Part shown: positions 1-62,768 of the stretch, piece after piece
Layout: every line of letters starts with the position of its first letter
Position numbering within the stretch: position 1 is the stretch's first letter
NCBI RefSeq assembly: GCF_003856495.1
Contig: NZ_CP034118.1
Coordinates: 2,392,182-2,456,181, forward strand
DNA from: Staphylospora marina
GTDB lineage: Bacteria > Bacillota > Bacilli > Thermoactinomycetales > Thermoactinomycetaceae
Reading direction: 5' to 3'
Length of the DNA: 64,000 nt
The notes under the pieces: generated by a model
What the model was told of the DNA's origin: nothing
The model's input: the letters and a program-made list of their open reading frames with translations, nothing else
The model's database searches: none
Program-made: the position numbers and the translations under genes

Positions 1-390
1 TGTTCCCGGCACCAAACGGGTGACGCGGAACCGGCCGTCCCGCCGTTTTTGTCCGTACAGGAACAGCGGTGCGGGAAAGAGCGTCTCACCCTTCCATTCG
101 AGAAAGGGGCCGGTGAGGCGAAGGGAACCGGTGTGATCCCAGCCGGCGGGAATGTCCGGATGAGCGGACGGATCGGAGGGTCCGCCCAGCCATTCCGGCC
201 AGCTGTCGGGTCGTTCCGGGTCCCAGCCTGCTTCCCGGGCCAGTGCGAAACGAACGGCCCCGAGCAGCGAGGAGGCGAACGGGGGAAAATGCGTGTCCGG
301 TGCCAGACCCCCGCTTTCCCCGGCGCTGAAGCGGGCGGGATCGCGGAAAAAGAGAGTGTCCAGTGGATCCCAGGACCACCATGTCGTCAT
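1..390 (-). CDS. cmr3: Cmr3, type III-B effector subunit (partial, C-terminus outside window)
   Basis: The frame begins MTTWWSWDPLDTLFFRD and continues with a GE-S-G-G segment and LAPDTHFPPF. This is the N-terminal signature of Cmr3, a Cas5-like RAMP that caps the crRNA 5' handle in the Cmr complex. Only about 130 codons are inside the window and the frame is open to the edge. The ATG at 388-390 overlaps the TGA of cmr2 (ATGA), so translation is probably coupled. Gene order cmr1-cmr2-cmr3 on one strand supports the call; the remaining cmr genes should lie to the left. Confidence 0.88.
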   Translation of the reverse strand, partial: MTTWWSWDPLDTLFFRDPARFSAGESGGLAPDTHFPPFASSLLGAVRFALAREAGWDPERPDSWPEWLGGPSDPSAHPDIPAGWDHTGSLRLTGPFLEWKGETLFPAPLFLYGQKRRDGRFRVTRLVPGT

Positions 391-2249
391 GAGGTTTTCA
401 CTCCTTTTGCCGGACGGAAAAACCGGATGAGTTGGGCGGCGCTGTCATCCAGCGGTCCTTCGGCCAACCGGACCCGGTCATCTTCCCGCCAGGAGCGGAA
501 GCTGACGCGGAACAAATCTTCCAGCAGTTCTTCCGTTTGCGGGTTCCGCTGGCCGGTGATGCGATAATGATCTTCACGGATGAGCCGCTTCAGCATGTAG
601 CGGTGCTGATCGTCGTCGTCGAGAAACTGCGGAAACCGTTTGTACGCGGTTTGCAGTTTGTCCAGAAACCGGTTGGACAACAGACGGTCCGGTGCGTTCA
701 GCAGGCGGATCAGGCTGTCCACGGCCGACGGTTGTCCGTCCGTTCCTTCCCAGGGAGCCGACCAGATCAGTTCCGCTCCCGTCCGTTTCCAGATCCCGAT
801 GGCCAGACTGTCTCTTCCCGTGGTTTCCTTCGCCTGAACATCCAGCATGTCACGGGTGAACTCCAGCACGCTTTGCAGCGGGGACGAGCAGTAACCGAAC
901 ACGACGGCGGTGGAGCAGGTGGCCTTGATCCGGTCGCCGGCCGTTTCCCGGAAAGCGTTCATGTAGTCCTCCCGCAGCAAGCGTGCCGCCCGGAGGGCTT
1001 GATCCATGGGGAAGATGGCCATGACGTCATCGCCGCCGGCGTAAATGACGATCCCTTGGTGACCATTGATGGTCGTGAGGATGCGTTCGGAGAATTCGTT
1101 CAGCGCCTGGCTGATCAACCGGCCGTTTTCCGGACTGGCCTGCAGATGCCGTCCCAACCGGTCGCCATCCATCATGAGGAGGGCGTAGTAAGGAATCGGA
1201 TCTTCGCCGACCGCCTTTCTGAGGCGCTCATAGGCATCCCGGAGCGAAGCGCCGTCCATGGACGAATCATCCCATACCCGCTGAAGCAGGTGAGGGATCA
1301 CCCAGCTTCCGTCCAGTTTGTAAAATTTCTCGATTCTTGGATCCGGTTTTTTCCCGTCCGGTGAAAGGATGTGGGAAGGAGGAGTGATCAGGACATCGTC
1401 CGGAACGGTGCGGGCATACTCCCTCACGGCGTGCGAGGCTTTTATCTTCGCCTTTTCCATCCACGACAGCGCCGCCATGTAGTTGAAGGAGGGAATGCCC
1501 ACCGCCTCGGAGGGAAACTTCCAACCGATCGCTTCCTCGGCCACGTAGGGAAGCAGCCGTTTGATCAGGGCGATGGCCGAGAGTCGTTCGTCATCCGCCA
1601 GATCATTGGACCTGAGGCTGTCGTCAATCATCTTCCAGAATGCACGGTCGTTGCAGCCGGACACCTCTTCCAACCGATTCATCACCGTGCATTTCTCTCC
1701 GCCTTCCACCGGTGGCAGATGATGGCGCCAGTTTTTTCGGCGATCGATGGCGTTGTCCGCTTCATCCACCACCCAGAAAGTCTCCCAGTACCCGTTCACC
1801 TGCCGCTTCCAGATCGCCTGTGTTCGCTCGTCGTCCCAGCGTCTGAGGTTTTCCGGGTCTGACTGCTTTTTCTGAATCTCGTTCCGAATGTACCTGTTCA
1901 CCGCGTCGGCGATTCGCTTCCACGCCGCGTCCACTGCCTCGCAACATCCGCGGGGATCGAAGTCTTTCGGCACTTCTGCCTTGAACCGGTTGGGCAACGT
2001 GCCAAGCCCCGGACCGAACCTCGGTTTCCGGTCCGGAGGCTGGAGAATGGCGCCCAGCAGGGAATCGGGCTTGTCGAGATTCACGAAAGGAAACACGATT
2101 CGGCCGCCGCTATGGATCACGTGGGCCATCGCGTGTCCGGTCAGATAGGAAACAAGAAACGAACTGACCAACAGATCACGCGTTCGACGTGAACGGGCCA
2201 CGAAATCCTGGACGGGTCCCAGCATGAAATGAACGGTTTTCACGCTCAT
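387..2249 (-). CDS. cmr2: Cmr2/Cas10, cyclic oligoadenylate synthase subunit of type III-B complex
   Basis: The 620-residue protein opens with the Cmr2 N-terminal pattern GPVQDFVARSRRTRDL followed by SSFLVSYLTG. It has two palm signatures: MDGDRLGRHL near residue 360, and IVIYAGGDDVMAIFP with the catalytic GGDD near residues 405-408. The GGDD motif makes cyclic oligoadenylates in this family. No N-terminal HD nuclease motif precedes the conserved start, so the single-strand DNase activity of some Cas10 proteins is probably absent. I chose the ATG at 2249 because it overlaps the cmr1 stop as ATGA and has GGGG six bases upstream; an in-frame ATG at 2255 is less well placed. Confidence 0.93.
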   Translation of the reverse strand: MSVKTVHFMLGPVQDFVARSRRTRDLLVSSFLVSYLTGHAMAHVIHSGGRIVFPFVNLDKPDSLLGAILQPPDRKPRFGPGLGTLPNRFKAEVPKDFDPRGCCEAVDAAWKRIADAVNRYIRNEIQKKQSDPENLRRWDDERTQAIWKRQVNGYWETFWVVDEADNAIDRRKNWRHHLPPVEGGEKCTVMNRLEEVSGCNDRAFWKMIDDSLRSNDLADDERLSAIALIKRLLPYVAEEAIGWKFPSEAVGIPSFNYMAALSWMEKAKIKASHAVREYARTVPDDVLITPPSHILSPDGKKPDPRIEKFYKLDGSWVIPHLLQRVWDDSSMDGASLRDAYERLRKAVGEDPIPYYALLMMDGDRLGRHLQASPENGRLISQALNEFSERILTTINGHQGIVIYAGGDDVMAIFPMDQALRAARLLREDYMNAFRETAGDRIKATCSTAVVFGYCSSPLQSVLEFTRDMLDVQAKETTGRDSLAIGIWKRTGAELIWSAPWEGTDGQPSAVDSLIRLLNAPDRLLSNRFLDKLQTAYKRFPQFLDDDDQHRYMLKRLIREDHYRITGQRNPQTEELLEDLFRVSFRSWREDDRVRLAEGPLDDSAAQLIRFFRPAKGVKTS

Positions 2250-3385
2250 TCCCATCCCCTTCTCAAAAACTTTCTGAATGCAAGTTCTCCGGTGAAGCTT
2301 TTCAAGGCTTGTTGAAGATGATCTTCATTCCAATCACGCCACCAGACTTTCCGGTTTCCCTCTTTGGATGCCAATTTCGGAAACGGCACGGATTGGATGG
2401 TGAATTGGGGAACGTATCCCTCAGCCGTGCGGGCGATGCGCAGCCGAACCGGGGACGGCATCCGTCCTTCTCTCCAGGGCTGTTCATATTTCTCCTCATC
2501 CACGGCAATAATCTGTTTGCCTTTGACTCGGGCAGGAAGTCCGAACAAAATGCGGTGTTCAGGGTAATGTTGATAAAAACGGTTCATCAGGTCATGGGCA
2601 TCCCGAAGTGCTTCAAAACAGTCGGAGTGGGGAGTCGGTCCCAACCAGACACTGGTGTTTCGGTCCAGGCGGGTATGTTTGCCGGGGGGAAACGGGGTGT
2701 CGGTCGCATGCAGCCAGCTTCGGATCATTTTGGCCCCATCGCAGAACCGATTCAACCACATTTCAGGTGTTTCTGCTCCGTCCGGCAGCGGCAAGGCTTC
2801 TTTCAAGCGAGCTGCTTCCGGGGCATGTTCCACCTTCCATGATTCCAGCGTAATCGAGCCCAATCCCCGACGGGTCCTCGTTCCGAGGCCGCCCACATGG
2901 GCCAGCAGCCAGACGGACGCCAATAATCCGGGCCAATCCTGGGGATCTTCCCGGTGGCGGTGTCGCATGGCGAATTGAAGCTCAAAGGACTGGTCCTCTT
3001 TCAGGTAATTCCGCTTGCTCAGGGAATGGGTGAAATGATGGAGCGAGGCCAACGTCGAATTGAAGGCCGAATGCTCCAAATGGGTGAGCAGGCGAATGAT
3101 CACCCGGGACTGCCCTGTATGTGAACCGGCTCCTCCGAACAGCACCTCCTCCCGGGTGCCCTTGATTTTGTGGTTGTGGGTTGACCTTTTCCGGTCCAAT
3201 TCCAGCCAGTCGGCAAATCCCGGATGAACGGCCCGGTACCAGTGGCGCAAGCTTCCCTTGATGGAAGGGACCCGCAGCACGGATTGCTGCTGGTTTGCGT
3301 CTCCGAGGAACATCGGGGTCACGATCCGGAAGCGGACGTGCAAGTGAGGAATGTCGGGGGATGTGTCGATGCGGGTTTCGTCCAC
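2246..3385 (-). CDS. cmr1: Cmr1, type III-B RAMP protein
   Basis: The 379-residue protein contains VTPMFLGDANQ near residue 23, then LRVPSIKGSLRHWYRA and EEVLFGG. This is the characteristic Cmr1 layout of a RAMP fold with a G-rich loop. Cmr1 sits at the 3' end of the crRNA in the Cmr complex. The start is a GTG with GGAGGG six bases upstream. It is first in the leftward cmr operon and overlaps cmr2 by 4 bases. Confidence 0.92.
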   Translation of the reverse strand: MDETRIDTSPDIPHLHVRFRIVTPMFLGDANQQQSVLRVPSIKGSLRHWYRAVHPGFADWLELDRKRSTHNHKIKGTREEVLFGGAGSHTGQSRVIIRLLTHLEHSAFNSTLASLHHFTHSLSKRNYLKEDQSFELQFAMRHRHREDPQDWPGLLASVWLLAHVGGLGTRTRRGLGSITLESWKVEHAPEAARLKEALPLPDGAETPEMWLNRFCDGAKMIRSWLHATDTPFPPGKHTRLDRNTSVWLGPTPHSDCFEALRDAHDLMNRFYQHYPEHRILFGLPARVKGKQIIAVDEEKYEQPWREGRMPSPVRLRIARTAEGYVPQFTIQSVPFPKLASKEGNRKVWWRDWNEDHLQQALKSFTGELAFRKFLRRGWE

Positions 3386-7206: not shown

Positions 7207-9378
7207 TCAACCGGCCGGATCCGGGTCCTGGCCGGCGTTTTCTTCCCGTGCTTTCAGCCAACGAATGGCGTTTTGTTCGCCCCGTTCGGCGGCGCGGCGG
7301 ATGAGGGTGAGGCCCTCCTCCACATCCTGCTCGATCCAATCCCCGTCGACGAGGTGGGTGCCGAGAATGAACATGGCCGTCGGTTGTTCTTCCGACACCG
7401 CCCGGGACAGCCAATGAAAACCGTCTTCCAGATCCCTTTTCATCCCGTCGGCGTACAGAAGCCGGCCTCCCAGCTCGAGCATGGCTTCCGCGTTCCCCAG
7501 CACGGCGGCGCGGCGCAGTAACACCTCGCCTTCCAGCGGGAGGCGGCGCAGCCCCTTTCCTTCCAGCAGGCGGTTGCCCAGTTCGTGCAGGGCCGGCGGG
7601 TAGTCGGCTTCGGCGGCGCGACGCAGCCACTGTTCTCCTTCTTCCGGACATTCCTTGCCGAGCGTTCCGTTCATCAGGTACGACCCGAGCGAATGCATGG
7701 CGGACAGAAGGCCGGCTTCCGCCGCGCGGCGCAGCCACGTCTCTCCCTCGGCGGCCTTTTCCGGTCCGTACACGCCCGACAGATAGAGGTGCGCCAACGT
7801 GTCCATGGCCTGTCCGTCCCCTTTGTCGGCCGCGCGAAGCAACCATCTTTCCGCTTCGGCGGGATCCGGGTGGCAGCCGAGTCCGGCGAGCAGGCAGCGG
7901 GCCAAATGGAACATGGCGGGAACCTCTTCCAGCTCGGCGGCCTGCCGAAGCAGTCGGACCCCTTCCACCGGATCCGGTTCCACGGGACCTCCGGAGATCA
8001 AGTACCAGCCGAGCACCGTGATCGAAGGCCCGTGGCCGGATGCCACGTTTTCGCGTAGCAGGGCCAGCCCCTCCTGCGGATTTTCCCCTTCTTCCACCAG
8101 ACGATGTACTTCGAACAGGCGGGCATCCAGGTGGCCGGCTTCCGCGGCGCGGCGGATCCATTCGTTTCCTTCGTCCTGTTCGCCCGGAATGTCACCCGCC
8201 AGCATGCCGAGTCCCAGCGAGAACATGGCCGTCGCATCTCCGCTCTCCGCCCTCGCCACAAGGTCGCCCCACTCCTCGCCGACGGAGGCCGACTCCGGTT
8301 CTTGTTCGGTTGCCTCCCGCTCCCTGCGGAAGGAATCCCACTCCTTCTCCAACTCGGAAAGGAGCCGACGATGCCGGTCGATGTTGCCGCGGAAATGATC
8401 ATTGCCGTTTCGCCGGTCAAAGGCGTCGGCCAGCTGCATGACTTGCTCCTGCAGCCACTCTTTCGTCGCCGGTTCGGGCAGATTCACGTCTTCCCCCGCC
8501 GCCTCCGACCGTTCCGCCAGCAACAGTCCGGCGAGCAGGAAGTGGAAGCACACTCCCTGTTCCCTGCATGCCATCGCCTCGGAAAAACGCCCGGAAAAGA
8601 GTTCCCTCGCCCGCTTCCGGTCCGTGACGGTCAGGTACAGGACGTGGTCCGAAACGGTGCTCAGAAATCCTTGCTCCGCGCCGATCGCGGCCAATCCTTG
8701 GCGATGAAATTCCTCCGCCGTCTCCCACCGGCCGGCCTTGGCCAGCGGAATCAGAAATTGCCCCCAGGTGTTGGCCGGAACATGTTTGCAGGTGTGGTCC
8801 CCGTTCAACAGCGGCCGGGCGAGTCGCAACGCTTCGTCCAACCGGTCCTGTTTCAGCAGGAACGTCACATGCGTGTCCAGTTCGCAGGCAAGGCAATCGG
8901 AGAGATCGTCCCGGGGCTCGTCCAGCCAGCGCTCGAACCACTCGGCCGCTTCTTCCATGTCCCCGCGCCGGAGCGCGATGCGGTGCCGGATCATGGCGTA
9001 CACCCGCTCTCCCATGCCCAATTGCCGATAACGGTTCCTCAAGTCTTCCAGCGTTTCCCGGATTTTCTCCAGGGACAATTGCGGAAATTCATCCAGGTCG
9101 TTGGCGATCCACTTGTATTGCCACATCAGGGTGTACGGACTGCACAACTCCGGATTTTTGTCAAACCGGGCCAGGCACCAGGCGAAGGAAACCAGCGCTT
9201 TGTCCGCCCGTCCGGCAAAATTGGCCGCTCCGGTCAGTTCCAAACGGGCCGCGAACGCGGCTTTCTCGTCCCCTTCCATGTCCGCCAACCGGACCGCTTT
9301 CTCCAGCAACTCGATCTTTTGATCACCGTCGGGCAACGTCTCGGCTTTTCTCAGCCATTCATCGATGGTCGGGTTCAT
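7207..9378 (-). CDS. TPR/Sel1-like repeat protein, partner of HSP90-family gene
   Basis: This 723-residue protein has no signal peptide. Residues up to about 350 form TPR-like helices (GRADKALVSFAWCLARFD, EEAAEWFERW). From about residue 365 to the end there are roughly nine Sel1 repeats with the typical pattern A-E-x-G-x-x-x-A-M-x-x-L-G and EGxxWLRRAAE. Such solenoids are protein-protein scaffolds. The ATG at 9378 has GGGGGA seven bases upstream, and the gene overlaps the end of the HSP90-like gene by 20 bases, so the two are translationally linked. The pairing suggests a co-chaperone-like role, which is inference. Confidence 0.85.
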   Translation of the reverse strand: MNPTIDEWLRKAETLPDGDQKIELLEKAVRLADMEGDEKAAFAARLELTGAANFAGRADKALVSFAWCLARFDKNPELCSPYTLMWQYKWIANDLDEFPQLSLEKIRETLEDLRNRYRQLGMGERVYAMIRHRIALRRGDMEEAAEWFERWLDEPRDDLSDCLACELDTHVTFLLKQDRLDEALRLARPLLNGDHTCKHVPANTWGQFLIPLAKAGRWETAEEFHRQGLAAIGAEQGFLSTVSDHVLYLTVTDRKRARELFSGRFSEAMACREQGVCFHFLLAGLLLAERSEAAGEDVNLPEPATKEWLQEQVMQLADAFDRRNGNDHFRGNIDRHRRLLSELEKEWDSFRREREATEQEPESASVGEEWGDLVARAESGDATAMFSLGLGMLAGDIPGEQDEGNEWIRRAAEAGHLDARLFEVHRLVEEGENPQEGLALLRENVASGHGPSITVLGWYLISGGPVEPDPVEGVRLLRQAAELEEVPAMFHLARCLLAGLGCHPDPAEAERWLLRAADKGDGQAMDTLAHLYLSGVYGPEKAAEGETWLRRAAEAGLLSAMHSLGSYLMNGTLGKECPEEGEQWLRRAAEADYPPALHELGNRLLEGKGLRRLPLEGEVLLRRAAVLGNAEAMLELGGRLLYADGMKRDLEDGFHWLSRAVSEEQPTAMFILGTHLVDGDWIEQDVEEGLTLIRRAAERGEQNAIRWLKAREENAGQDPDPAG

Positions 9379-11152
9379 CCCTGTTTCCCCCCAATTCAAG
9401 TCCCCGGTCCAAAAGATGGATGATTCCGTGATTCAGAAGATCCATTTCCTGTTTGCGAAGCGGATGGTGCCCCAGCAGCAGGGCTTGCACATACAACATG
9501 GCGACGGCCGCCTTGCGCAGATCCAGATCACGCGTGAGAATCGCCTTGCGCACGACCGGATTGGCGAAATTGAAGCAGAGGCGTCCCAGGCTCTTGTCTC
9601 CGTTTTGGCCGGTCACCTGACCAATGAGGGAGGAAAAGAGTTCGTTTGCCTCTTCCCGTGTCTGTTCGGCCGCACGGAGGAATTGGGCTTCTTCTCCCGT
9701 GATGTACAGGGCGGACAACTCCGGCGGGGCGAACTTGCGGATCTCCGGCACGCAGGCAAACGGGCGCAGCATCCGGCCCGCCAGATCGAGGAAATCCTCC
9801 GTCACCGCGCGTTCCCGCTCATCCAACTGGGAAAAACGGTTGGTCAGTTCGGCCGGATCCAGTCTGCGAACCTGTATCTCCGGAAAAACCTTGCCCAGTT
9901 TCTGCACCAGTTCGGCATCATGCACATACCCGCCGTTGACCACGCAGATCGATTGGGCTTTGGCCACGCGGGCGATCTGGCGGAATTCATCCACCGTCGT
10001 GGTGTAGAGAACCATCGGTTCCCGCCGGCGAAGCTCACCCATCGTCAACATGCCGAACGACGTTTCAAACGGCAACCAGTCGATGAACAGGCGGAACAGC
10101 TCGTCGTCTTCCAGGGACAACATCTTGATCGACATGTAATGGATGCGGATGATTTCTTTCAAAAGTTTGGGCCGCGTGGAAGCCAGGTTCACCAGATACC
10201 GCTTGATGCACGCTCCCAGCTCGGCCCGTGTCAGATCCAGCAGCGCGTCTTCATAAAATTCCTCCCGCGAAGCCGTCGGCCGAAGCTTGTTCACATTCAG
10301 CACCGCCGTGACGAAAAACGCCCAGTCCGGCAGCACCTTCTCCGACCGTTCCGACAGCAGCATGCGCTTCACGTACACCCGGTGCGTCTTGCGTGCGCTC
10401 ACCGCCACCGGATGGGGCAGCACGAACGCCACTCCCTTTGCCTCGCCCACCGACGACGACAGCGGAATCACGTCCAGAGCCGCGAGGTCCAGCTTCTCCC
10501 GGGCCCACACCAGTGCGTCCGAAGCGGACATTTCCCACGGCGCCTTATCCGCATTCAACCGCTCTTCCCGTTCCCCGTAAAACACGATCGGCACCGGCAG
10601 GCATTCGGCGTACCGGCGAATGTGACTCTTCACCCGTTCCGGCTCAAACCAGCGCTCGAATCCCTCTTTGGCCTGCAGGTAGATCCGCGTGCCGGGCGCC
10701 ATCTCCGACTCCAGCCGCCGCAGCGTGTAACTGCCGTCCGGACGGCCCCGCCACTCCACCGCATCCCCGCCCTTCGCCGAGCGCGTCAGGAGCACGATTT
10801 CGTCGCTCACGATGAAACAGGACAGCAGTCCCACGCCGAATCTTCCGATGAAATCCTCTTCATCCGTTCCCTGTTTGGACGTGTGCCCGATCTGAGACAA
10901 AAACCGGTGGACTTCCTCCTCCGTCAGTCCGATTCCGTTATCCTCAATGAACAGCGTCGGGCGCGGACCGGACTCATACAACTCCACGCCGATCCGTCCC
11001 GCGTGCTCCGGATCCAGCTTTTTCCTTGCCGTGATCGCATCGGCCGCGTTTTGCACCAGCTCCCGCAAATACACATGCGGCGTGCTGTACAAATGGTTGG
11101 ACAACAAATCGATCATGCCTTTGAGGTTGACCTTGAAATGAAAACTTTCCAT
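9359..11152 (-). CDS. HSP90-family (HtpG-like) ATPase
   Basis: The 597-residue protein carries the GHKL ATP-binding motifs of HSP90: YLRELVQNAADA near residue 28, DNGIGL near 73, and GRFGVGLLSCF near 102. A middle domain follows with the region around RVYVKRMLLSERSEKVLPDW. It is somewhat shorter and more divergent than canonical HtpG, fitting the group usually named HSP90 family protein. The ATG has GGGAG about eleven bases upstream. It is the first gene of a two-gene unit with the TPR/Sel1 protein and divergent from ung. Confidence 0.9.
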   Translation of the reverse strand: MESFHFKVNLKGMIDLLSNHLYSTPHVYLRELVQNAADAITARKKLDPEHAGRIGVELYESGPRPTLFIEDNGIGLTEEEVHRFLSQIGHTSKQGTDEEDFIGRFGVGLLSCFIVSDEIVLLTRSAKGGDAVEWRGRPDGSYTLRRLESEMAPGTRIYLQAKEGFERWFEPERVKSHIRRYAECLPVPIVFYGEREERLNADKAPWEMSASDALVWAREKLDLAALDVIPLSSSVGEAKGVAFVLPHPVAVSARKTHRVYVKRMLLSERSEKVLPDWAFFVTAVLNVNKLRPTASREEFYEDALLDLTRAELGACIKRYLVNLASTRPKLLKEIIRIHYMSIKMLSLEDDELFRLFIDWLPFETSFGMLTMGELRRREPMVLYTTTVDEFRQIARVAKAQSICVVNGGYVHDAELVQKLGKVFPEIQVRRLDPAELTNRFSQLDERERAVTEDFLDLAGRMLRPFACVPEIRKFAPPELSALYITGEEAQFLRAAEQTREEANELFSSLIGQVTGQNGDKSLGRLCFNFANPVVRKAILTRDLDLRKAAVAMLYVQALLLGHHPLRKQEMDLLNHGIIHLLDRGLELGGNRDEPDHR

Positions 11153-13473: not shown

Positions 13474-13704
13474 AGGATGTTCCAGTATGGATGCAACTGA
13501 AACCAACCCTTCCCGATTCCCTACCACCATCCAGTTAACTTTCAATTCCACCATGGATCCAACTCAAACGATCCCATGGGAACGAGTGAAGGTGGCTTCA
13601 TTCGGGCTTTCAATTCCACTATGGATCCAACTCAAACGAGCGTCATAGTCTTAGTCGGCGTGTTCTTCCTAATCTTTCAATTCCACTATGGCTCCAACTC
13701 AAAC
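13474..13704 (-). CRISPR. CRISPR array 1 (3 full repeats plus degenerate terminal repeat)
   Basis: Repeats of 31 bases start at 13539, 13607 and 13674, with a decayed copy ending at 13503. On the plus strand the repeat reads CTTTCAATTCCAC then N, ATGGAT, N and CAACTCAAAC. Read on the minus strand it ends ATTGAAAG, the Cas6 handle, so transcription is leftward from the leader at 13705. The leader-proximal repeat has a GGCTCC variant instead of GGATCC. Spacers are about 36-38 bases. Confidence 0.95.
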
Positions 13705-13880
13705 CCTATTGTGAACACCAGACAAATCAAGACCTTTTCATTATACCAAACCCCAAAAAAGTCTGTGAACCGGGAATCCTGCAAAAACCCCGGGAGGTTC
13801 ACAGAACTCGATTCATTATTCAGAAAAGATACCCTTCCGTCACTGCTCTGTTAAGCCAGTTGGTATATTTCACGCCAATA
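13705..13880 (-). promoter_or_regulatory. Leader of array 1 with sigma-A promoter
   Basis: The minus-strand promoter is TTCACA (13764-13769), 18 bases, TATAAT (13740-13745), about 35 bases before the first repeat. The -35 box is inside an inverted repeat whose arms read GTCTGTGAACC and GGTTCACAGA here. This leader recurs almost unchanged at every array in the cluster. Confidence 0.85.
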
Positions 13881-13944
13881 AAAAAGCCAGAGCCATCCCC
13901 TGCGAGTGCCTTTGCCATCGCAACGAAACGAACAGGGGATGGCT
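13881..13944 (-). terminator. Array-trailer hairpin 1
   Basis: AGCCATCCCCTG (13891-13902) pairs perfectly with CAGGGGATGGCT (13933-13944). The 30-base loop contains the invariant plus-strand segments GAGTGCCTTTGCCATCG and CAACGAAACGA. On the minus strand the stem is followed by GGCTTTTTT, typical of a terminator for array 2. In this copy both arms changed relative to AGCCCTCCCC, keeping pairing. Confidence 0.75.
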
Positions 13945-13958
13945 GCCGGCGGGCTCCC

Positions 13959-14532
13959 TCACCTATTCCACCATGGATACAACTCAAACTAACCCTACCA
14001 ATGAAGTCGTTTTTATGGTCGGACCGCCCTTTCAATTCCACTATGGATCCAACTCAAACAATGGCGAAGTGCAAAGCTTGAACATGAGACAATTTATCTT
14101 TCAATTCCACCATGGATCCATCTCAAACGTGAACCGACTGTCGCGGCATACATCAAGAAGCTCACTTTCAATTCCACCATGGATTCAATTCAAACAATTA
14201 AGATTGCCACCAAAGGTCGCGCTGCCGGCGTTCCTTTCAATTCCACTATGGATACAACTCAAACCATCAAGGCGAGGGACTTCCTCGACCTCCATCTCAC
14301 CTTTCAATTCCACTATGGATCCAACTCAAACCTGGAAGCCCAAGAGAAACAACGGGGCGGCGGGACTTTCAATTCCACTATGGATCCAACTCAAACTCGA
14401 ATACGGGATCCGGCAAGGTTGGTGGGAACCGGCTTTCAATTCCACTATGGATCCAACTCAAACTTAGACGAACAATCCGGGATCACGGTCCCGGAGATCA
14501 ACTTTCAATTTCACTATGGATCCAACTCAAAC
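13959..14532 (-). CRISPR. CRISPR array 2 (9 repeats, 8 spacers)
   Basis: Repeats start at 13959 (degenerate, distal), 14029, 14098, 14165, 14234, 14301, 14366, 14433 and 14502. Most leader-side copies carry TATGGATCC in the middle. The copies at 14098 and 14165 have extra substitutions (CCATCTC and TTCAATTC), and the leader-proximal one reads AATTTCAC. Spacers are 35-40 bases. Confidence 0.97.
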
Positions 14533-14703
14533 CCCATTGTGAACATCAGATAAATCAAGGCTTCTCCATTATACCAAACCCTCAAAAAGTCTGTGAACCG
14601 GGAATCCCGCAAAAACCCCGGGAGGTTCACAGACTTCGATTCACTATTCAGAAAAGATACCCTTCCGTCACTGTCCTGGTGTCTCCTCACACCAATATAA
14701 GCC
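14533..14703 (-). promoter_or_regulatory. Leader of array 2 with sigma-A promoter
   Basis: Same organisation as leader 1: TATAAT at 14568-14573 on the minus strand and TTCACA 18 bases upstream. The -35 lies within the arm of the AAGTCTGTGAACC / GGTTCACAGACTT inverted repeat. Confidence 0.85.
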
Positions 14704-14762
14704 GGATCCCTCCCCTGTGAGTGCCTTTGCCATCGCAACGAAACGAACAGGGGAGGGATTCC
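14704..14762 (-). terminator. Array-trailer hairpin 2
   Basis: ATCCCTCCCCTG (14706-14717) pairs perfectly with CAGGGGAGGGAT (14748-14759) around the invariant loop. The outer pair changed from G-C to T-A compared with other copies, so the stem covaries. The T run after the stem is weak here. Confidence 0.7.
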
Positions 14763-14774
14763 AGCGAGCTCCCT

Positions 14775-15407
14775 CACACAATTCCACGATGGATCCAACT
14801 CAAACACGAGGATCTCGTCAAAGTCCAATCGGTGATGACCATCTTTCAATTCCACGATGGATACAACTCAAACACGAGGATCTCGTCAAAGTCCAATCGG
14901 TGATGACCATCTTTCAATTCCACGATGGATACAACTCAAACGGAAAGACCGCATCCAGGAAGACAACGAAAAAATCACTTTCAATTCCACGATGGATACA
15001 ACTCAAACCACCAGCCGATCAGCATTGGTCATCCAGGGCATTTCACTTTCAATTCCACGATGGATACAACTCAAACTAGTGGACATTTTCTCCATTCTCT
15101 CCTCTCTGTCGACTTTCAATTCCACGATGGATACAACTCAAACTTCGGGAATGCTTCCGCCCCGCCGTTGTTCGTGACCTTTCAATTCCACGATGGATAC
15201 AACTCAAACCAAGAGCAACAGCACCCCACTTCCACTCCAGAGCAGAAACCGAAGGTACCACCCGCCCCGATCGTTGTTAAGCCGATCAGAATTGACTTGA
15301 AGTGAGTGCTTTCAATTCCACGATGGATACAACTCAAACGAGCCTGTTCGGAAATGGTTGGTTTGATGGAGACCCGCTTTCAATTCCACGATGGATACAA
15401 CTCAAAC
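14775..15407 (-). CRISPR. CRISPR array 3 (9 repeats, 8 spacers, duplicated terminal spacer)
   Basis: Repeats start at 14775 (degenerate), 14843, 14911, 14978, 15046, 15113, 15179, 15309 and 15377. All internal copies carry GATGGATAC. The two most distal spacers (14806-14842 and 14874-14910) are identical. One spacer (15210-15308) is 99 bases long, almost three times normal. Confidence 0.97.
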
Positions 15408-15590
15408 CCCATTGTGAACACCAGACAAATCAAGGCCTTTCCATTATACCAACCCCCTAAAAAGTCTGTGAACCTCCAATCCTGCAAAAACCCCGGGAGG
15501 TTCACAGACTTCGATTCATTATTCAGAAAAGATACCATCCCGTCACTACTTTGTTATTCAAGGTGGTTTCTCGCACACGAATAAAAAGGA
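15408..15590 (-). promoter_or_regulatory. Leader of array 3 with sigma-A promoter
   Basis: TATAAT lies at 15443-15448 on the minus strand. The inverted repeat is at its longest in this copy: AAGTCTGTGAACCTCC (15462-15477) with GGAGGTTCACAGACTT (15496-15511), a 16-bp perfect match. Confidence 0.85.
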
Positions 15591-15649
15591 GGAACCCTCC
15601 CCTGCGAGTGCCTTTGCCATCGCAACGAAACGAGCAGGAGAGGGGTTCC
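15591..15649 (-). terminator. Array-trailer hairpin 3
   Basis: GGAACCCTCCCCTGC (15591-15605) pairs with GCAGGAGAGGGGTTCC (15634-15649) with one bulge. The GGAGCC/GGCTCC pair of other copies became GGAACC/GGTTCC, a compensated change. CTCCTTTTTATTC follows on the minus strand. Confidence 0.75.
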
Positions 15650-15661
15650 GGCACACTCCCT

Positions 15662-16292
15662 CACACAATCCCAACAAGGATACAACTCAAACGTTCCCGT
15701 TCCTTGTCATCATACTACTCATTGATGACCTTTCAATCCCACCATGGATACAACTCATACATGGATGAGTTCAACTATTATCTTGAAATCAGTATGATCT
15801 TTCAATTCCACTATGGATTCAAACCAGATGATTGAGAAGGCCATGGATCGTTTGAAGCCGGCTTTCAATTCCACGATGGATCCAACTCAAACTGCCGATA
15901 TCGAAGAAGTGGCCGCGTACATTCGGAAGGCTTTCAATTCCACTATGGATACAACTCAAACTCCCAGTATACGTGGGTAATCGCAGTTCCGAGGGCTTTC
16001 AATTCCACTATGGATACAACTCAAACGAGGAGGTGAACCATGTTCCGGATCAAGTTGGTCCAACTTTCAATTCCACTATGGATACAACTCAAACTCCTCC
16101 GAATATGGTGAATGAACTCAACCAAATCCCTTTCAATTCCACTATGGATACAACTCAAACGCGGCTGAAAAACGGCTGAAGGGGAAGAAGGACACTTTCA
16201 ATTCCACTATGGATACAACTCAAACCACTGATCAGTACACACAGAAGTACAGTTTAATGGACTTTCAATTCCACTATGGATACAACTCAAAC
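15662..16292 (-). CRISPR. CRISPR array 4 (10 repeats, 9 spacers)
   Basis: Repeats start at 15662 (strongly degenerate), 15730, 15799, 15862, 15931, 15996, 16064, 16130, 16195 and 16262. The six leader-proximal copies are TATGGATAC. The copy at 15799 has lost five bases near its right end, and that at 15730 ends CTCATAC. Decay thus increases away from the leader, as expected for old repeats. Confidence 0.97.
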
Positions 16293-16475
16293 CCTATTGT
16301 GAACATCAGATAAATCAAGGCCTTTTCATTATACCAAACCCTCAAAAAGTCTGTGAACCGGGAGTCCTGCAAAAACCCCTGGAGGTTCACAGACTTCGAT
16401 TCATTATTCAGAAAAGATACTCTTCCGTCACTGCTCTGTTAAGCCAGGTGGTTTCTCGCACATGAATAAAAAGGA
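16293..16475 (-). promoter_or_regulatory. Leader of array 4 with sigma-A promoter
   Basis: TATAAT at 16328-16333 on the minus strand, TTCACA 18 bases upstream, and the AAGTCTGTGAACC inverted repeat are all intact. Confidence 0.85.
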
Positions 16476-16534
16476 GGAACCCTCCCCTGCGAGTGCCTTT
16501 GCCATCGCAACGAAACGAGCAGGAGAGGGGTTCC
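16468..16534 (-). terminator. Array-trailer hairpin 4
   Basis: GGAACCCTCCCCTGC (16476-16490) pairs with GCAGGAGAGGGGTTCC (16519-16534). The hairpin together with the following degenerate repeat is nearly identical to the copy at 15584-15692, differing by about one base, which points to a recent segmental duplication. Confidence 0.75.
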
Positions 16535-16546
16535 GGTACACTCCCT

Positions 16547-16643
16547 CACACAATCCCAACAAGGATACAACTCAAACTCCGGCATGTCGGCGCGTTGCCG
16601 CGAAAACAGCGTCTTTCAATTCCACCATGGATCCAACTCAAAC
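16547..16643 (-). CRISPR. CRISPR array 5 (2 repeats, 1 spacer)
   Basis: A degenerate terminal repeat (16547-16577, same degenerate form as array 4) and one intact repeat (16613-16643, CATGGATCC) enclose a 35-base spacer. Confidence 0.9.
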
Positions 16644-16832
16644 CCTATTGTGAACATCAGATAAATCAAGGCTTCTCCATTATACCAAACCCTCAAAAAG
16701 TCTGTGAACCGAAAATTCTGCAAAAACCCCGGGAGGTTCACAGACTTCGTTTCATTCTTCAGAAAAAATACCTCCTGTTACAACTCCGTTAAGCCAGTTG
16801 GTTAATCTCACACCAATAAAAGCCGGAACCCT
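16644..16832 (-). promoter_or_regulatory. Leader of array 5; hairpin missing on its far side
   Basis: TATAAT at 16679-16684 and the inverted repeat are present, with an altered centre (ACCGAAAATTCTGC). Beyond the leader the usual trailer hairpin is deleted: AAAGCCGGAACCCTC runs directly into CACACAATTCC of the next degenerate repeat. Confidence 0.8.
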
Positions 16833-16929
16833 CACACAATTCCACCATGGATACAACCCAAACGATGCAAAAGATGTTGTATTTGAGGACTACACAAACT
16901 TTCAATTCCACCATGGATACAACCCAAAC
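16833..16929 (-). CRISPR. CRISPR array 6 (2 repeats, 1 spacer)
   Basis: A degenerate repeat ending at 16863 and one repeat at 16899-16929 enclose a 35-base spacer. Both have the CATGGATACAACCCAAAC variant ending. No trailer hairpin follows on the transcribed strand. Confidence 0.9.
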
Positions 16930-17110
16930 CCCATTGTGAACACCAGATAAATCAAGGCTTCTCCATTATACCAAACCCCTAAAAAGTCTGTGAACCGGGA
17001 GTCCTGCAAACCCCGGGAGGTTCACAGACCTCGTTTCATCATTCAGAAAAGATACCCTTCCATCACTACTCTGTTATTCCAGGTGGTTTCTCGCACACCA
17101 ATGGTAAAAG
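16930..17110 (-). promoter_or_regulatory. Leader of array 6 with sigma-A promoter
   Basis: TATAAT at 16965-16970 with TTCACA 18 bases upstream on the minus strand. The loop between the inverted repeat arms has lost three A residues. Confidence 0.82.
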
Positions 17111-17172
17111 CCGGAGCCCTCCCCTGTGAGTGCCTTTGCCATCGCAACGAAACGAGCAGGGGAGGGCTCCCG
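17105..17172 (-). terminator. Array-trailer hairpin 6
   Basis: GGAGCCCTCCCCTG (17113-17126) pairs perfectly over 14 bp with CAGGGGAGGGCTCC (17157-17170). GGCTTTTACC follows on the minus strand. This is the best-paired copy. Confidence 0.8.
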
Positions 17173-17183
17173 ACGGGCTCCCT

Positions 17184-17418
17184 CACACAATTCCACCATG
17201 GATACAACTCAAACGAAACGGGTGGAGGCCGAGGGGTCGCCAGAGTTCTTCACTTTCAATTCCACTATGGATGCAACTCAAACGCTTCCTTTCTCACGAT
17301 GGTGGGACGTATGAGTTGGCTTTCAATTCCACTATGGATGCAACTCAAACCCCCAACGCCTCCACGCGGATTCCTTCAGCATGTGCCCTTTCAATTCCAC
17401 CATGGATACAACCCAAAC
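17184..17418 (-). CRISPR. CRISPR array 7 (4 repeats, 3 spacers)
   Basis: Repeats start at 17184 (degenerate), 17253, 17320 and 17388. The two middle ones are TATGGATGC, while the leader-proximal copy is CATGGATAC with ACCCAAAC, as in array 6. The newest repeat therefore does not match its neighbours, suggesting recombination between units. Confidence 0.95.
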
Positions 17419-17601
17419 CCCATTGTGAACATCAGATAAATCAAGGTCTTTTCATTATACCAAATCCCAAAAAAGTCTGTGAACCGGGAATCCTGCAAAA
17501 ACCCCGGGAGGTTCACAGACCTCGTTTCATTATTCAGAAAAGATACCCTTCCGTCACTGCTCTGTCAAGCCAGGCGATCTCTCGCACACCAATGGTAATA
17601 G
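17419..17601 (-). promoter_or_regulatory. Leader of array 7 with sigma-A promoter
   Basis: TATAAT at 17454-17459 on the minus strand and the AAGTCTGTGAACC inverted repeat are intact. Confidence 0.85.
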
Positions 17602-17662
17602 CCGGAGCTTCCCCCTGCGAGTGCCTTTGCCATTGCAACGAAACGAGCAGGGGAGGGCTGCC
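17602..17662 (-). terminator. Array-trailer hairpin 7
   Basis: GGAGCTTCCCCCTGC pairs with GCAGGGGAGGGCTGCC with two G-T wobbles and one mismatch. The loop is conserved except for CCATTGCAAC in place of CCATCGCAAC. There is no T run after the stem. Confidence 0.6.
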
Positions 17663-17674
17663 GGCCGGCTCCTT

Positions 17675-18112
17675 CACACAATTCCATCTTGGGATCCAAC
17701 TCAAACGATGTAAGGAAAAGACAAATTCTAAGGAGGTTTTTCCACTTTCAATTCCACCATGGATGCAACTAAAACAAAAGCGAAAGGCCCACAGCAGCGG
17801 CAACTGTTGTGCTTTCAATTCCACTATGGATGCAACTAAAACGACAGTGGTTCAGTGCAAACGATTCAGAGGGTATGTCTTTCAATTCCACTATGGATGC
17901 AACTCAAACTCCGGAAGTTCGGCAAACAATGGGTGGTGACTGAACACCTTTCAATTCCACTATGGATGCAACTCAAACTTACACCCTGAAAAAGTTCTTC
18001 CCTCGGCTATACAACCTTTCAATTCCACTATGGATGCAACTCAAACATGGAATCCTTCACCCCCAGCGATCCCGAACCACTCTTTCAATTCCACTATGGA
18101 TGCAACTCAAAC
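17675..18112 (-). CRISPR. CRISPR array 8 (7 repeats, 6 spacers)
   Basis: Repeats start near 17675 (degenerate, one base longer), 17745, 17812, 17879, 17948, 18016 and 18082. They carry TATGGATGC apart from the 17745 copy (CATGGATGC). The 17745 and 17812 copies share an ACTAAAAC ending, evidence that one was copied from the other. Confidence 0.97.
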
Positions 18113-18295
18113 CCCATTGTGAACACCAGACAAATCAAGGCTTCTCCATTATACCAAACCCTCAAAAAGTCTGTGAACCGGGAGTCCTGCAAAAACCCCG
18201 GGAGGTTCACAGACCTCGATTCAATTTTCAGAAAATATCCCCCTCTGTCACAACTCTGTTAAGACAGGTGGCTTCTCGCACACCAATGGAAAGCC
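18113..18295 (-). promoter_or_regulatory. Leader of array 8 with sigma-A promoter
   Basis: TATAAT at 18148-18153 on the minus strand, TTCACA 18 bases upstream, and the inverted repeat are intact. Confidence 0.85.
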
Positions 18296-18354
18296 GGAAC
18301 CCTCCCCTGCGAGTGCCTTTGCCATTGCAACGAAACGAGCAGGGGAGGGCTGCC
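18290..18354 (-). terminator. Array-trailer hairpin 8
   Basis: GGAACCCTCCCCTGC (18296-18310) faces GCAGGGGAGGGCTGCC (18339-18354) around the conserved loop. The outer pairs are imperfect. CCGGCTTTCC follows on the minus strand. Confidence 0.65.
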
Positions 18355-18366
18355 GGCCGGATCCCT

Positions 18367-18859
18367 CACACAATTCCACCATGGATCCAACTCAAACTTC
18401 CGGATTAACCGTCCGGATGTGATTAGAATCGCCTTTCAATTCCACGATGGATCCAACTCAAACACGCAATCAATCGAATTCTGAACCCGCCGAAACGGCT
18501 TTCAATTCCACGATGGATTCAACTCAAACGGGCAAGAAGACCACGGAGGAGATGCAAAGGAAATGGCTTTCAATTCCACGATGGATTCAACTCAAACTGA
18601 TTGCCCCCGTGCGAGTGCCCATGCTCGGTTTCTCTTTCAATTCCACGATGGATTCAACTCAAACCGGCGCCACGTCCACCTCATACGAAAGCTGTCTTTC
18701 AATTCCACGATGGATCCAACTCAAACGCTCAGACACTCATACGGACACCACCGTCCGGACAGTCTTTCAATTCCACGATGGATCCAACTCAAACCTCCCT
18801 GTTTCATTATTTCACACATTTTGATATCCTTTCAATTCCACGATGGATCCAACTCAAAC
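18367..18859 (-). CRISPR. CRISPR array 9 (8 repeats, 7 spacers)
   Basis: Repeats start at 18367 (degenerate), 18433, 18499, 18567, 18634, 18696, 18764 and 18829. All internal copies have G at the first variable position. The second is C in the outer copies and T in three consecutive copies (18499, 18567, 18634), showing blockwise copying. Confidence 0.97.
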
Positions 18860-19040
18860 CCCATTGTGAACACCAGACAAATCAAGGCCTTTCCATTATA
18901 CCAATCCCCAAAAAAAACTGTGAACCTCCAATCCTGCAAAAACCCCGGGAGGTTCACAGACTTCGATTCATTATTCAGAAAAGATACCCTACCGTCACTG
19001 CTCTGTCAAGCCAGGCGACCTCTCGCACACCAATGAAAAG
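18860..19040 (-). promoter_or_regulatory. Leader of array 9 with sigma-A promoter
   Basis: TATAAT lies at 18895-18900 on the minus strand. The inverted repeat arms are CTGTGAACCTCC and GGAGGTTCACAG, resembling leader 3. Confidence 0.85.
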
Positions 19041-19101
19041 CCGGAGCCCTCCTCTGTGAGTGCCTTTGCCATCGCAACGAAACGAACAGGGGAGGGCTGC
19101 C
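19035..19101 (-). terminator. Array-trailer hairpin 9
   Basis: GGAGCCCTCCTCTG (19043-19056) pairs with CAGGGGAGGGCTGCC (19087-19101), with one T-G wobble. GGCTTTTCATTGG follows on the minus strand. Confidence 0.7.
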
Positions 19102-19114
19102 GGCGGACTCCCTC

Positions 19115-19212
19115 ACCCCAATTCCACGATGGATACAACTCAAACCAGACAGAAAGATGTCATCGAATTCATGAATGATTGCTTTCAATTCCACGATGGA
19201 TCCAACTCAAAC
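19115..19212 (-). CRISPR. CRISPR array 10 (2 repeats, 1 spacer)
   Basis: A degenerate repeat ending at 19145 and one intact repeat (19182-19212, GATGGATCC) enclose a 36-base spacer. This is the right-hand end of the cluster. Confidence 0.9.
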
Positions 19213-19300
19213 CCCATTGTGAACACCAGACAAATCAAGGCCTTTTCATTATACCAAACCCTCAAAAAGTCTGTGAACCAAGAATCCTGCGATGATCAAA
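19213..19300 (-). promoter_or_regulatory. Truncated leader of array 10
   Basis: The promoter (TATAAT at 19248-19253, TTCACA upstream) survives, but the sequence breaks off in the loop after AATCCTGC. The upstream arm of the inverted repeat and the leader's outer part are missing. Confidence 0.8.
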
Positions 19301-19362
19301 GCCGGAGCCTTTCCCCGCGAGTGCCTTTGCCATTGTAACGAAACGAGCGGGGAATGGCTTCC
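19298..19362 (-). terminator. Array-trailer hairpin 10a (no array attached)
   Basis: GGAGCCTTTCCCCGC (19304-19318) pairs with GCGGGGAATGGCTTCC (19347-19362). The stem sequence differs at several positions from other copies on both arms, while the loop (GAGTGCCTTTGCCATTG and ACGAAACGA) is kept. Confidence 0.7.
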
Positions 19363-19381
19363 GACAACTCCCACGCACAGT

Positions 19382-19449
19382 GAAAAATCCGGAGCCCTCC
19401 CCTGCGAGTGCCTTTGCCATTGCAACGAAACGAACAGGGGAGGGCTGCC
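19382..19449 (-). terminator. Array-trailer hairpin 10b (no array attached)
   Basis: GGAGCCCTCCCCTGC (19391-19405) pairs with CAGGGGAGGGCTGCC (19435-19449). GGATTTTTCAC follows on the minus strand. No CRISPR repeat lies to its right; instead ATGGTTCACATC occurs twice in tandem at about 19468-19495. Confidence 0.7.
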
Positions 19450-19493
19450 GGCGCACTCCCTCACACAATGGTTCACATCCAATGGTTCACATC

Positions 19494-19898
19494 TCACAGG
19501 CGAAAAGACACATTCGGCCCCGGAACATACCGGCTGAAGATCACCATGGTGCCCTCCCGGAGAACTTCCCAGACGGAATTGTCCAAAGCGGAGACCCGTT
19601 CGAAAAAGGCGTGGATTTTCCGGCATGTGACGTCGACGTTTCTTCGGGTCACCTGGAATTTGAACCACAGGATTCCCTGGTGAACCACATCCGGCAGGCG
19701 GGGAGGAACCAGAAGGATGAAATCTTTTCCGTTGTGGGTGAGCAGGATTCTTCCCGAATCCACGGCAGCCTCGAGCACGCGCGAGTCGCTCATGCCGCGC
19801 AGACCGAGCGAATGGACGCTTTCCACGTCATACCCCAGCTCCCGGAAGATTTCCGCGGCTTTGGGCGTGACGTTTTCATCCAGCAGCAGTTTCCGCAT
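19494..19898 (-). CDS. DUF5615 PIN-like toxin
   Basis: The 134-residue protein begins MRKLLLDENVTPKAAEIF and contains GLRGMSDSRVLEAA and ILLTHNGKDF. This is the usual DUF5615 layout of a PIN-like nuclease fold with acidic residues near the N-terminus (Asp7, Glu8) and an Asp after TH. DUF5615 proteins are regularly encoded with DUF433 proteins as toxin-antitoxin pairs. The ATG lies 3 bases after the stop of the upstream DUF433 gene. Confidence 0.82.
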   Translation of the reverse strand: MRKLLLDENVTPKAAEIFRELGYDVESVHSLGLRGMSDSRVLEAAVDSGRILLTHNGKDFILLVPPRLPDVVHQGILWFKFQVTRRNVDVTCRKIHAFFERVSALDNSVWEVLREGTMVIFSRYVPGPNVSFRL

Positions 19899-19901
19899 GG
19901 A

Positions 19902-20360
19902 TCAGCTCCCCAGAAACGGGTCATCCAGAACCTCGATGGCATAATCAAGGGCGGCTTTCACCTGGTCCGGATTCAACCGGTAGTCTTCGCAAATCTCTTC
20001 CACGGTCATGCCGTCGCGAAAACAGGCCAGAATGAGCGAAACCTGGATGCGGGTGCCGGCGATCACCGGCATGCCTCCGACCACTTCGGGCGTCAGGGAC
20101 ACGCCCTCATGGTGATGAGCCACGCGTTTCAGATAAGCGTATCCGCTTTTGTCGATCTTTCGCTTCCACGTCGGAATGGCGGGAAGATGGACAATCCGCG
20201 CTTCAAGGGGGCCGGCCTCCTGAATCCGGAGCGTGCCCGATTCTTCTCCCGGATCTTTCTCCGGGGCTTTGCGGGGAAGTTTCCCGTCCCCGTTTGTGTC
20301 CGGCTGATGGCCGGATGCATTCCGCGCTTCGCGCTCCCGGTCGTCCCCGGAATGTTTCAT
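19902..20360 (-). CDS. DUF433 antitoxin
   Basis: The C-terminal 75 residues match DUF433: GVSLTPEVVGGMPVIAGTRI followed by MTVEEICEDYRLNPDQVKAAL, a winged-helix-like DNA-binding fold. The first 55 residues are polar and unconserved-looking, so the true start might be internal. The ATG at 20360 follows GGGGAGG with a short gap. It is upstream of and coupled to the DUF5615 gene. Confidence 0.78.
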   Translation of the reverse strand: MKHSGDDREREARNASGHQPDTNGDGKLPRKAPEKDPGEESGTLRIQEAGPLEARIVHLPAIPTWKRKIDKSGYAYLKRVAHHHEGVSLTPEVVGGMPVIAGTRIQVSLILACFRDGMTVEEICEDYRLNPDQVKAALDYAIEVLDDPFLGS

Positions 20361-62694: not shown

Positions 62695-62757
62695 GCCGGT
62701 GCCCTCCCCTGTGAGTGCCTTTGCCATTGCAACGAAATGAGCGGGGAATGGCTTCCG
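62685..62757 (-). terminator. Array-trailer hairpin 11
   Basis: The invariant loop (GTGAGTGCCTTTGCCATTG and CAACGAAATGA, one change) is kept. The stem (GCCCTCCCC with GGGGAATGGC) is partly mispaired. GGCTTTTATTGG follows on the minus strand. Confidence 0.6.
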
Positions 62758-62768
62758 GCGGTCTCCCT

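Follow-up and report, generated by a model that had tools for sequence, protein, structure and literature searches.

A dispersed palindromic repeat with a structured core at and beyond the CRISPR arrays of Staphylospora marina

Palindromic repeats of the REP and MITE kind usually keep either their ends or their stem. REP/BIME elements have been characterized as GC-rich extragenic palindromes that form alternating clusters, carry a GT(A/G)G head and are associated with RAYT transposases (PMC2817692). Here, we analyzed a hairpin that accompanies CRISPR arrays in a 64,000-nt stretch of the 2.75-Mb genome of S. marina (C1:2392182-2456181; hereafter, the window). A sequence-only reading of this DNA had proposed that eleven hairpins with an invariant loop and compensated stems represent a CRISPR-related functional RNA.

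Hairpins and CRISPR arrays in the window

We found 11 exact copies of GAGTGCCTTTGCCAT in the window, all on the (+) strand, with 10 located at 13904-19420 and one at 62713, which agrees with the number and places given in the earlier reading. This count is far above chance, as shuffles yielded a mean of 2.0 and a maximum of 5 matches with up to three mismatches allowed. The hairpins and the CRISPR features that surround them are listed in Table 1.

Table 1. Hairpin copies and CRISPR features, in window coordinates.
Feature	Position	Strand	Remarks
Hairpin copy 1	13887..13949	+	Core 13904-13931; pattern and covariance-model match
Hairpin copy 2	14702..14764	+	Pattern and covariance-model match
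Hairpin copy 3	15589..15651	+	Pattern and covariance-model match
Hairpin copy 4	16474..16536	+	Pattern and covariance-model match
Hairpin copy 5	17111..17173	+	Pattern and covariance-model match
Hairpin copy 6	17602..17664	+	Pattern and covariance-model match
Hairpin copy 7	18294..18356	+	Pattern and covariance-model match
Hairpin copy 8	19041..19103	+	Pattern and covariance-model match
Hairpin copy 9	19302..19364	+	Tandem with copy 10
Hairpin copy 10	19389..19451	+	Tandem with copy 9
Hairpin copy 11	62696..62758	+	Lies in a small, degenerate CRISPR module whose leader matches that of the main arrays
Tandem CRISPR arrays	13541..19201	− (crRNA strand)	44 of the 45 repeats in the window, found by pattern
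Module lacking its hairpin	16679-16840		Leader and promoter 16679-16745; AAGCCGGAACC/CTCACACAA left at 16820..16839 (+); direct reading

Ten short CRISPR arrays lie in tandem (13541-19277), each with one leader, and all ten leaders carry an identical TTCACA-18-TATAAT promoter with a TG (i.e., a near-perfect extended −10) on the minus strand, so the arrays are most likely transcribed from that strand. The promoter is positioned next to or inside a leader inverted repeat, GTCTGTGAACC...GGTTCACAGAC, which overlaps the −35 box. Read along the array strand, each hairpin follows the end of an array and precedes the promoter of the following one. Nine modules consisting of leader, hairpin and shortened repeat, including the one at 62.7 kb, proved 77-86% identical over 360 nt; judged from this alignment, the CRISPR-linked hairpins were copied together with the array module, i.e., with its leader and promoter. 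Throughout the window, the arrays are transcribed antisense to the core strand, and at arrays with a second type of CRISPR repeat (2010k, 2012k and 2388k) the core strand is sense, the direction of these arrays being judged from repeat ends only. The orientation of the core thus shows no fixed relation to crRNA, and nothing ties the one to the other.

Several genes adjoin or accompany these arrays. Type III CRISPR genes for Cas10/Cmr2 and a Cmr1-like RAMP protein are present at 387-3382 (−), and an HSP90/HATPase-domain protein with a weak match to the PADLOC TmtA family is encoded near the CRISPR locus at 9359-11149 (−). A DUF5615 and DUF433 gene pair, which we take to be a likely toxin-antitoxin-type module, adjoins the arrays at 19494-20357 (−). 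Elsewhere in the genome, at 2010-2014k, cas1- and cas2-like genes (by sequence reading) lie between two small arrays, both of which end in a hairpin copy.

Stem covariation and the structured core

An alignment of 22 copies from this genome revealed that 94.5% of the paired cells are complementary and that 9 of the 19 stem pairs changed on both sides. Two-sided changes occupied 51 cells compared with 14.5 in shuffled alignments, with a covariation score of 0.358 (0.149 when shuffled), which bears out the compensated stem changes read from the window. Control structures slid by 1-3 columns paired in just 37-49% of cells. RNA folding recovered the same hairpin (z = −8.7 and −9.4), with a typical copy reaching −43.5 kcal/mol (z −8.7), and DNA folding gave the same shape.

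The core spans 28 nt and reads GA-RY-GC-C-T-TTGC-NNNN-GCAA-Y-G-AA-RY-GA on the (+) strand. In a position-by-position alignment, its outer positions form G-A and A-G mismatches (44/47 each), followed inward by a G-C or A-U pair, a U-A or C-G pair, a G-A mismatch (43/47) and a C-A mismatch (44/47), and then by a C-G pair, a U-C or U-U mismatch and the UUGC/GCAA hairpin. Two inner pairs covary, as in GAGTGCC..GAAACGA, GAACGCC..GAAGTGA and GAGCGCC..GAAGCGA, and in some copies the C-A mismatch is replaced by A-G (GAGTGAC..GGAACG). The supposed loop is a structured internal-loop stack with mismatches among its conserved features. The earlier description of a loop with a small TTGC/GCAA inner pairing was correct in that the UUGC/GCAA hairpin exists, but the 28-nt stretch turned out to be structured in its own right; the invariance ascribed to the loop applies to the CRISPR-linked copies, in which it is nearly complete, whereas other copies in the same genome vary, partly in a compensated way. 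A kink-turn interpretation of the core was dropped by reasoning only, because its internal loops are symmetrical and have no 3-nt bulge.

Distribution in the genome and in related genera

A covariance-model search of the S. marina genome identified 74 matches at E≤0.001, rising to 86 at E≤0.01. Of the 74, 21 have a CRISPR repeat of either type no more than 400 bp away, a share above the expectation for chance placement, and the other 53 lie farther off. The repeat thus occurs mainly outside CRISPR loci, largely in the manner of an ordinary REP-like element, an outcome that the earlier reading had itself named as counting against its proposal. A CRISPR-related RNA family is therefore not supported, given these 53 copies, the alternating clusters and MITE-like elements described below, the mixed orientation relative to crRNA and the module without a hairpin.

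Further analysis of the dispersed copies revealed clusters in which hairpins alternate head-to-head (922k, 1996k, 2512k and 2518k), the first of them built from a 176-bp tandem unit with two opposed hairpins, as well as further clusters at 566k, 706k and 1767k and singletons. Neither terminal inverted repeats nor target duplications were seen for the window copies, and the copies in this genome do not have the MITE ends described below, so mobility of the repeat within S. marina is only inferred. Two copies located 1.7 kb apart, at 2630232 and 2631948, have one-side flanks that are identical over at least 110 bp, which suggests a local duplication.

The same core with other stems was found in genomes G031 (n = 7), G027 (n = 1), G037 (n = 33), G039 (n = 7) and G041 (n = 46), the last being Paludifilum halophilum (Thermoactinomycetaceae). 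Matches in G015, G011 and G001 were weak, and their sequences display the same G-A layout. Arms pair at 9.6 of 10 positions inside a hairpin, and left arms agree at 4.4 of 10 across lineages. Outside the order, a class-wide search returned one match per genome, close to a reversed-pattern control. Three further matches, one in a virus and two on Rhizobium plasmids, appeared chance-like and were rejected as evidence for viral, phage or plasmid presence; the viral match and one of the plasmid matches fall inside coding sequence.

In Paludifilum (37 copies), the core is central in an element of ~131 bp with 11-bp inverted ends, AAGCGTTGTGA. Identical 4-bp flanks, mostly CTAG/CTAG, border 32 of the 37 copies; nine copies are not CTAG/CTAG, and four of these are still matched (TTAG/TTAG twice, TTAA/TTAA and GTAG/GTAG), which favors a 4-bp target duplication and led us to reject a duplication of TA. 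By its structure, as read from these ends and flanks, the Paludifilum element is a MITE. In one of its copies, core and inner stem are flipped with respect to the outer flanks. In G037, the core resides in a different MITE-like element of ~139 bp with other ends and mostly CTAG or near-variant flanks; an empty-site comparison with G024, tried at a single locus, found that locus not syntenic. Searched on its own, the Paludifilum end sequence occurs ~300 times in G039, in several cases with other hairpin cargo, as at four loci where elements with the same ends enclose tandem hairpins of another kind, AAGTCTCGCCAGGG...GGTCTCGCTATGCACTCACCAGTAC. A related element in G029 has the GA core replaced.

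A preference for CTAG/YTAR targets is known for IS701- and IS630-type elements. We searched two transposase families in five or six genomes: no DDE_3 (IS630-type) transposase with the Paludifilum ends was found, and DDE_5 transposases were absent or fragmentary. We rejected a REP transposase as the mobilizer, given that no RAYT (Y1 transposase) was detected in S. marina and that Y1 presence across the order does not track hairpin number.

Possible roles and comparison with known systems

The sequence-only reading had noted T runs on the crRNA strand after many copies and had made termination part of the role. T runs do follow the stem on the array (minus) strand at 42 of the 74 copies in this genome, compared with 22 on the other strand, and several copies could plausibly terminate transcription at the arrays. 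However, no T run adjoining the stem was seen in other genera and, therefore, termination is not general to the family. The remark that the conserved loop is not needed for termination was supported. It has to be considered whether the hairpin is primarily a transcription terminator or insulator of tandem CRISPR arrays that is kept by selection for that role. The position of each hairpin between an array end and the next promoter, the excess of T runs on the array strand and the presence of the hairpin at the distal end of arrays with a different repeat would all fit, but a strict terminator scan was positive at only a few copies, one array module does without a hairpin, the majority of copies lie away from arrays, the stem-adjacent T run is missing from other genera, and the conserved core would be superfluous; we consider this explanation unlikely, though the most credible of the alternatives. 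To the proposal that the covariation is mutational, with template switching during replication perfecting the palindromes and no selection involved, we give little credence. Perfect arms occur in many lineages, and the flipped Paludifilum copy is what arm recombination is expected to produce; yet such a process would turn the core mismatches into pairs too, when they rank among the best conserved positions, and many single-sided changes persist in Paludifilum.

A host factor that binds RNA or single-stranded DNA could instead recognize the GA-rich core, making the hairpin a portable 3′ UTR regulatory motif, which we regard as doubtful, ranking it behind the terminator and ahead of the mutational explanation. 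From genus to genus the core is kept although stems and element ends differ, and the inner pairs of the core covary with the mismatches retained. In other genera, the gene 5′ of the core strand lies in sense at 59 of 82 loci (59:23; p ~1e-4, a nominal value given the simple codon-bias gene caller and the related copies behind the orientation counts), with 40:12 sense:antisense at codirectional loci. In Paludifilum, the bias is stronger for the adjacent gene (26:5 sense:antisense) than for its neighbors in the 8-kb locus (20:11), and an effect of the replication strand alone therefore explains it poorly. By contrast, no sense bias of the neighboring gene was found in S. marina, no positional conservation was seen, and the related G029 element dispenses with the GA core. 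RNA-level selection predicts a wobble asymmetry (G-U over A-C), but the G-U:A-C counts were inconsistent (14:2 in G037, 24:19 in this genome and 6:14 in Paludifilum), and we rejected this asymmetry as proof of RNA. Since the tests of RNA selection disagree, an RNA role of the core is no more than a hint. Least probable among the readings considered is that unrelated small mobile elements of one order have each acquired a portable stacked G-A hairpin core as the target of a host RNA-binding factor that works in 3′ UTRs and where CRISPR array transcripts end.

The dispersal of the hairpin, its covarying stems, the core common to several genera, the copying of the CRISPR-linked hairpins along with the array module and, in Paludifilum, the MITE ends with their target duplications are all shown by the data. 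In our view, the hairpin is probably a palindromic repeat that multiplies and disperses while its structured core is conserved, that is REP/BIME-like in S. marina and MITE-borne in related genera, and that was captured once at the end of a CRISPR array. If it is such a captured repeat, the leader-distal end of an ancestral array would have received one copy, which then spread as the array module was duplicated. Together with the T's on the array strand, the hairpin would probably serve as a weak terminator or insulator before the promoter of the next array, and its role at the arrays would be that of an insulator at most. The core may be kept because the folded element, with stacked G-A mismatches in a rigid hairpin, is recognized or tolerated as a single strand, RNA being the likeliest form given the tendency, in other genera, for copies to follow the upstream gene in the sense orientation. 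No Rfam family matched the hairpin, in line with the earlier reading, which knew of no family with this loop, and no description of the repeat was found in the literature within our reach, which mostly excluded subscription papers. The repeat family is genuine and, with its unusually conserved structured core, apparently undescribed; on present evidence it does not qualify as a CRISPR-associated functional RNA family. As a caution, a hairpin that covaries and lies next to CRISPR arrays may simply have been carried along when the array was copied. The repeat also provides a clean test case for what maintains a palindromic repeat over evolution, with mutation bias, a transposase and an RNA-binding factor as the candidates.

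Like the intrinsic terminators found at CRISPR array ends, the hairpin is GC-rich and leader-distal, and T's often come after it on the array strand; unlike them, it encloses a structured core of 28 nt in a long stem, lies mostly away from arrays and shows no conservation of the T run. It shares with REP/BIME elements the form of a short, GC-rich, imperfect palindrome that is extragenic, present in many copies and alternating in orientation within clusters. However, no GT(A/G)G head stands beside the palindrome, whose 5′ side typically reads AAAGCCGG..., the genome has no Y1 transposase, and it is the core, common to many genera, rather than the stem that is conserved. The Paludifilum and G037 elements resemble bacterial MITEs in their inverted ends, their length of ~130-140 bp, too short to encode a transposase, and their CTAG-type flanks, whereas the hairpin core is common to elements with unrelated ends and occurs in S. 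marina without such ends. Unlike the usual palindromic repeats, this one has kept its inside while stem and ends were swapped between lineages.
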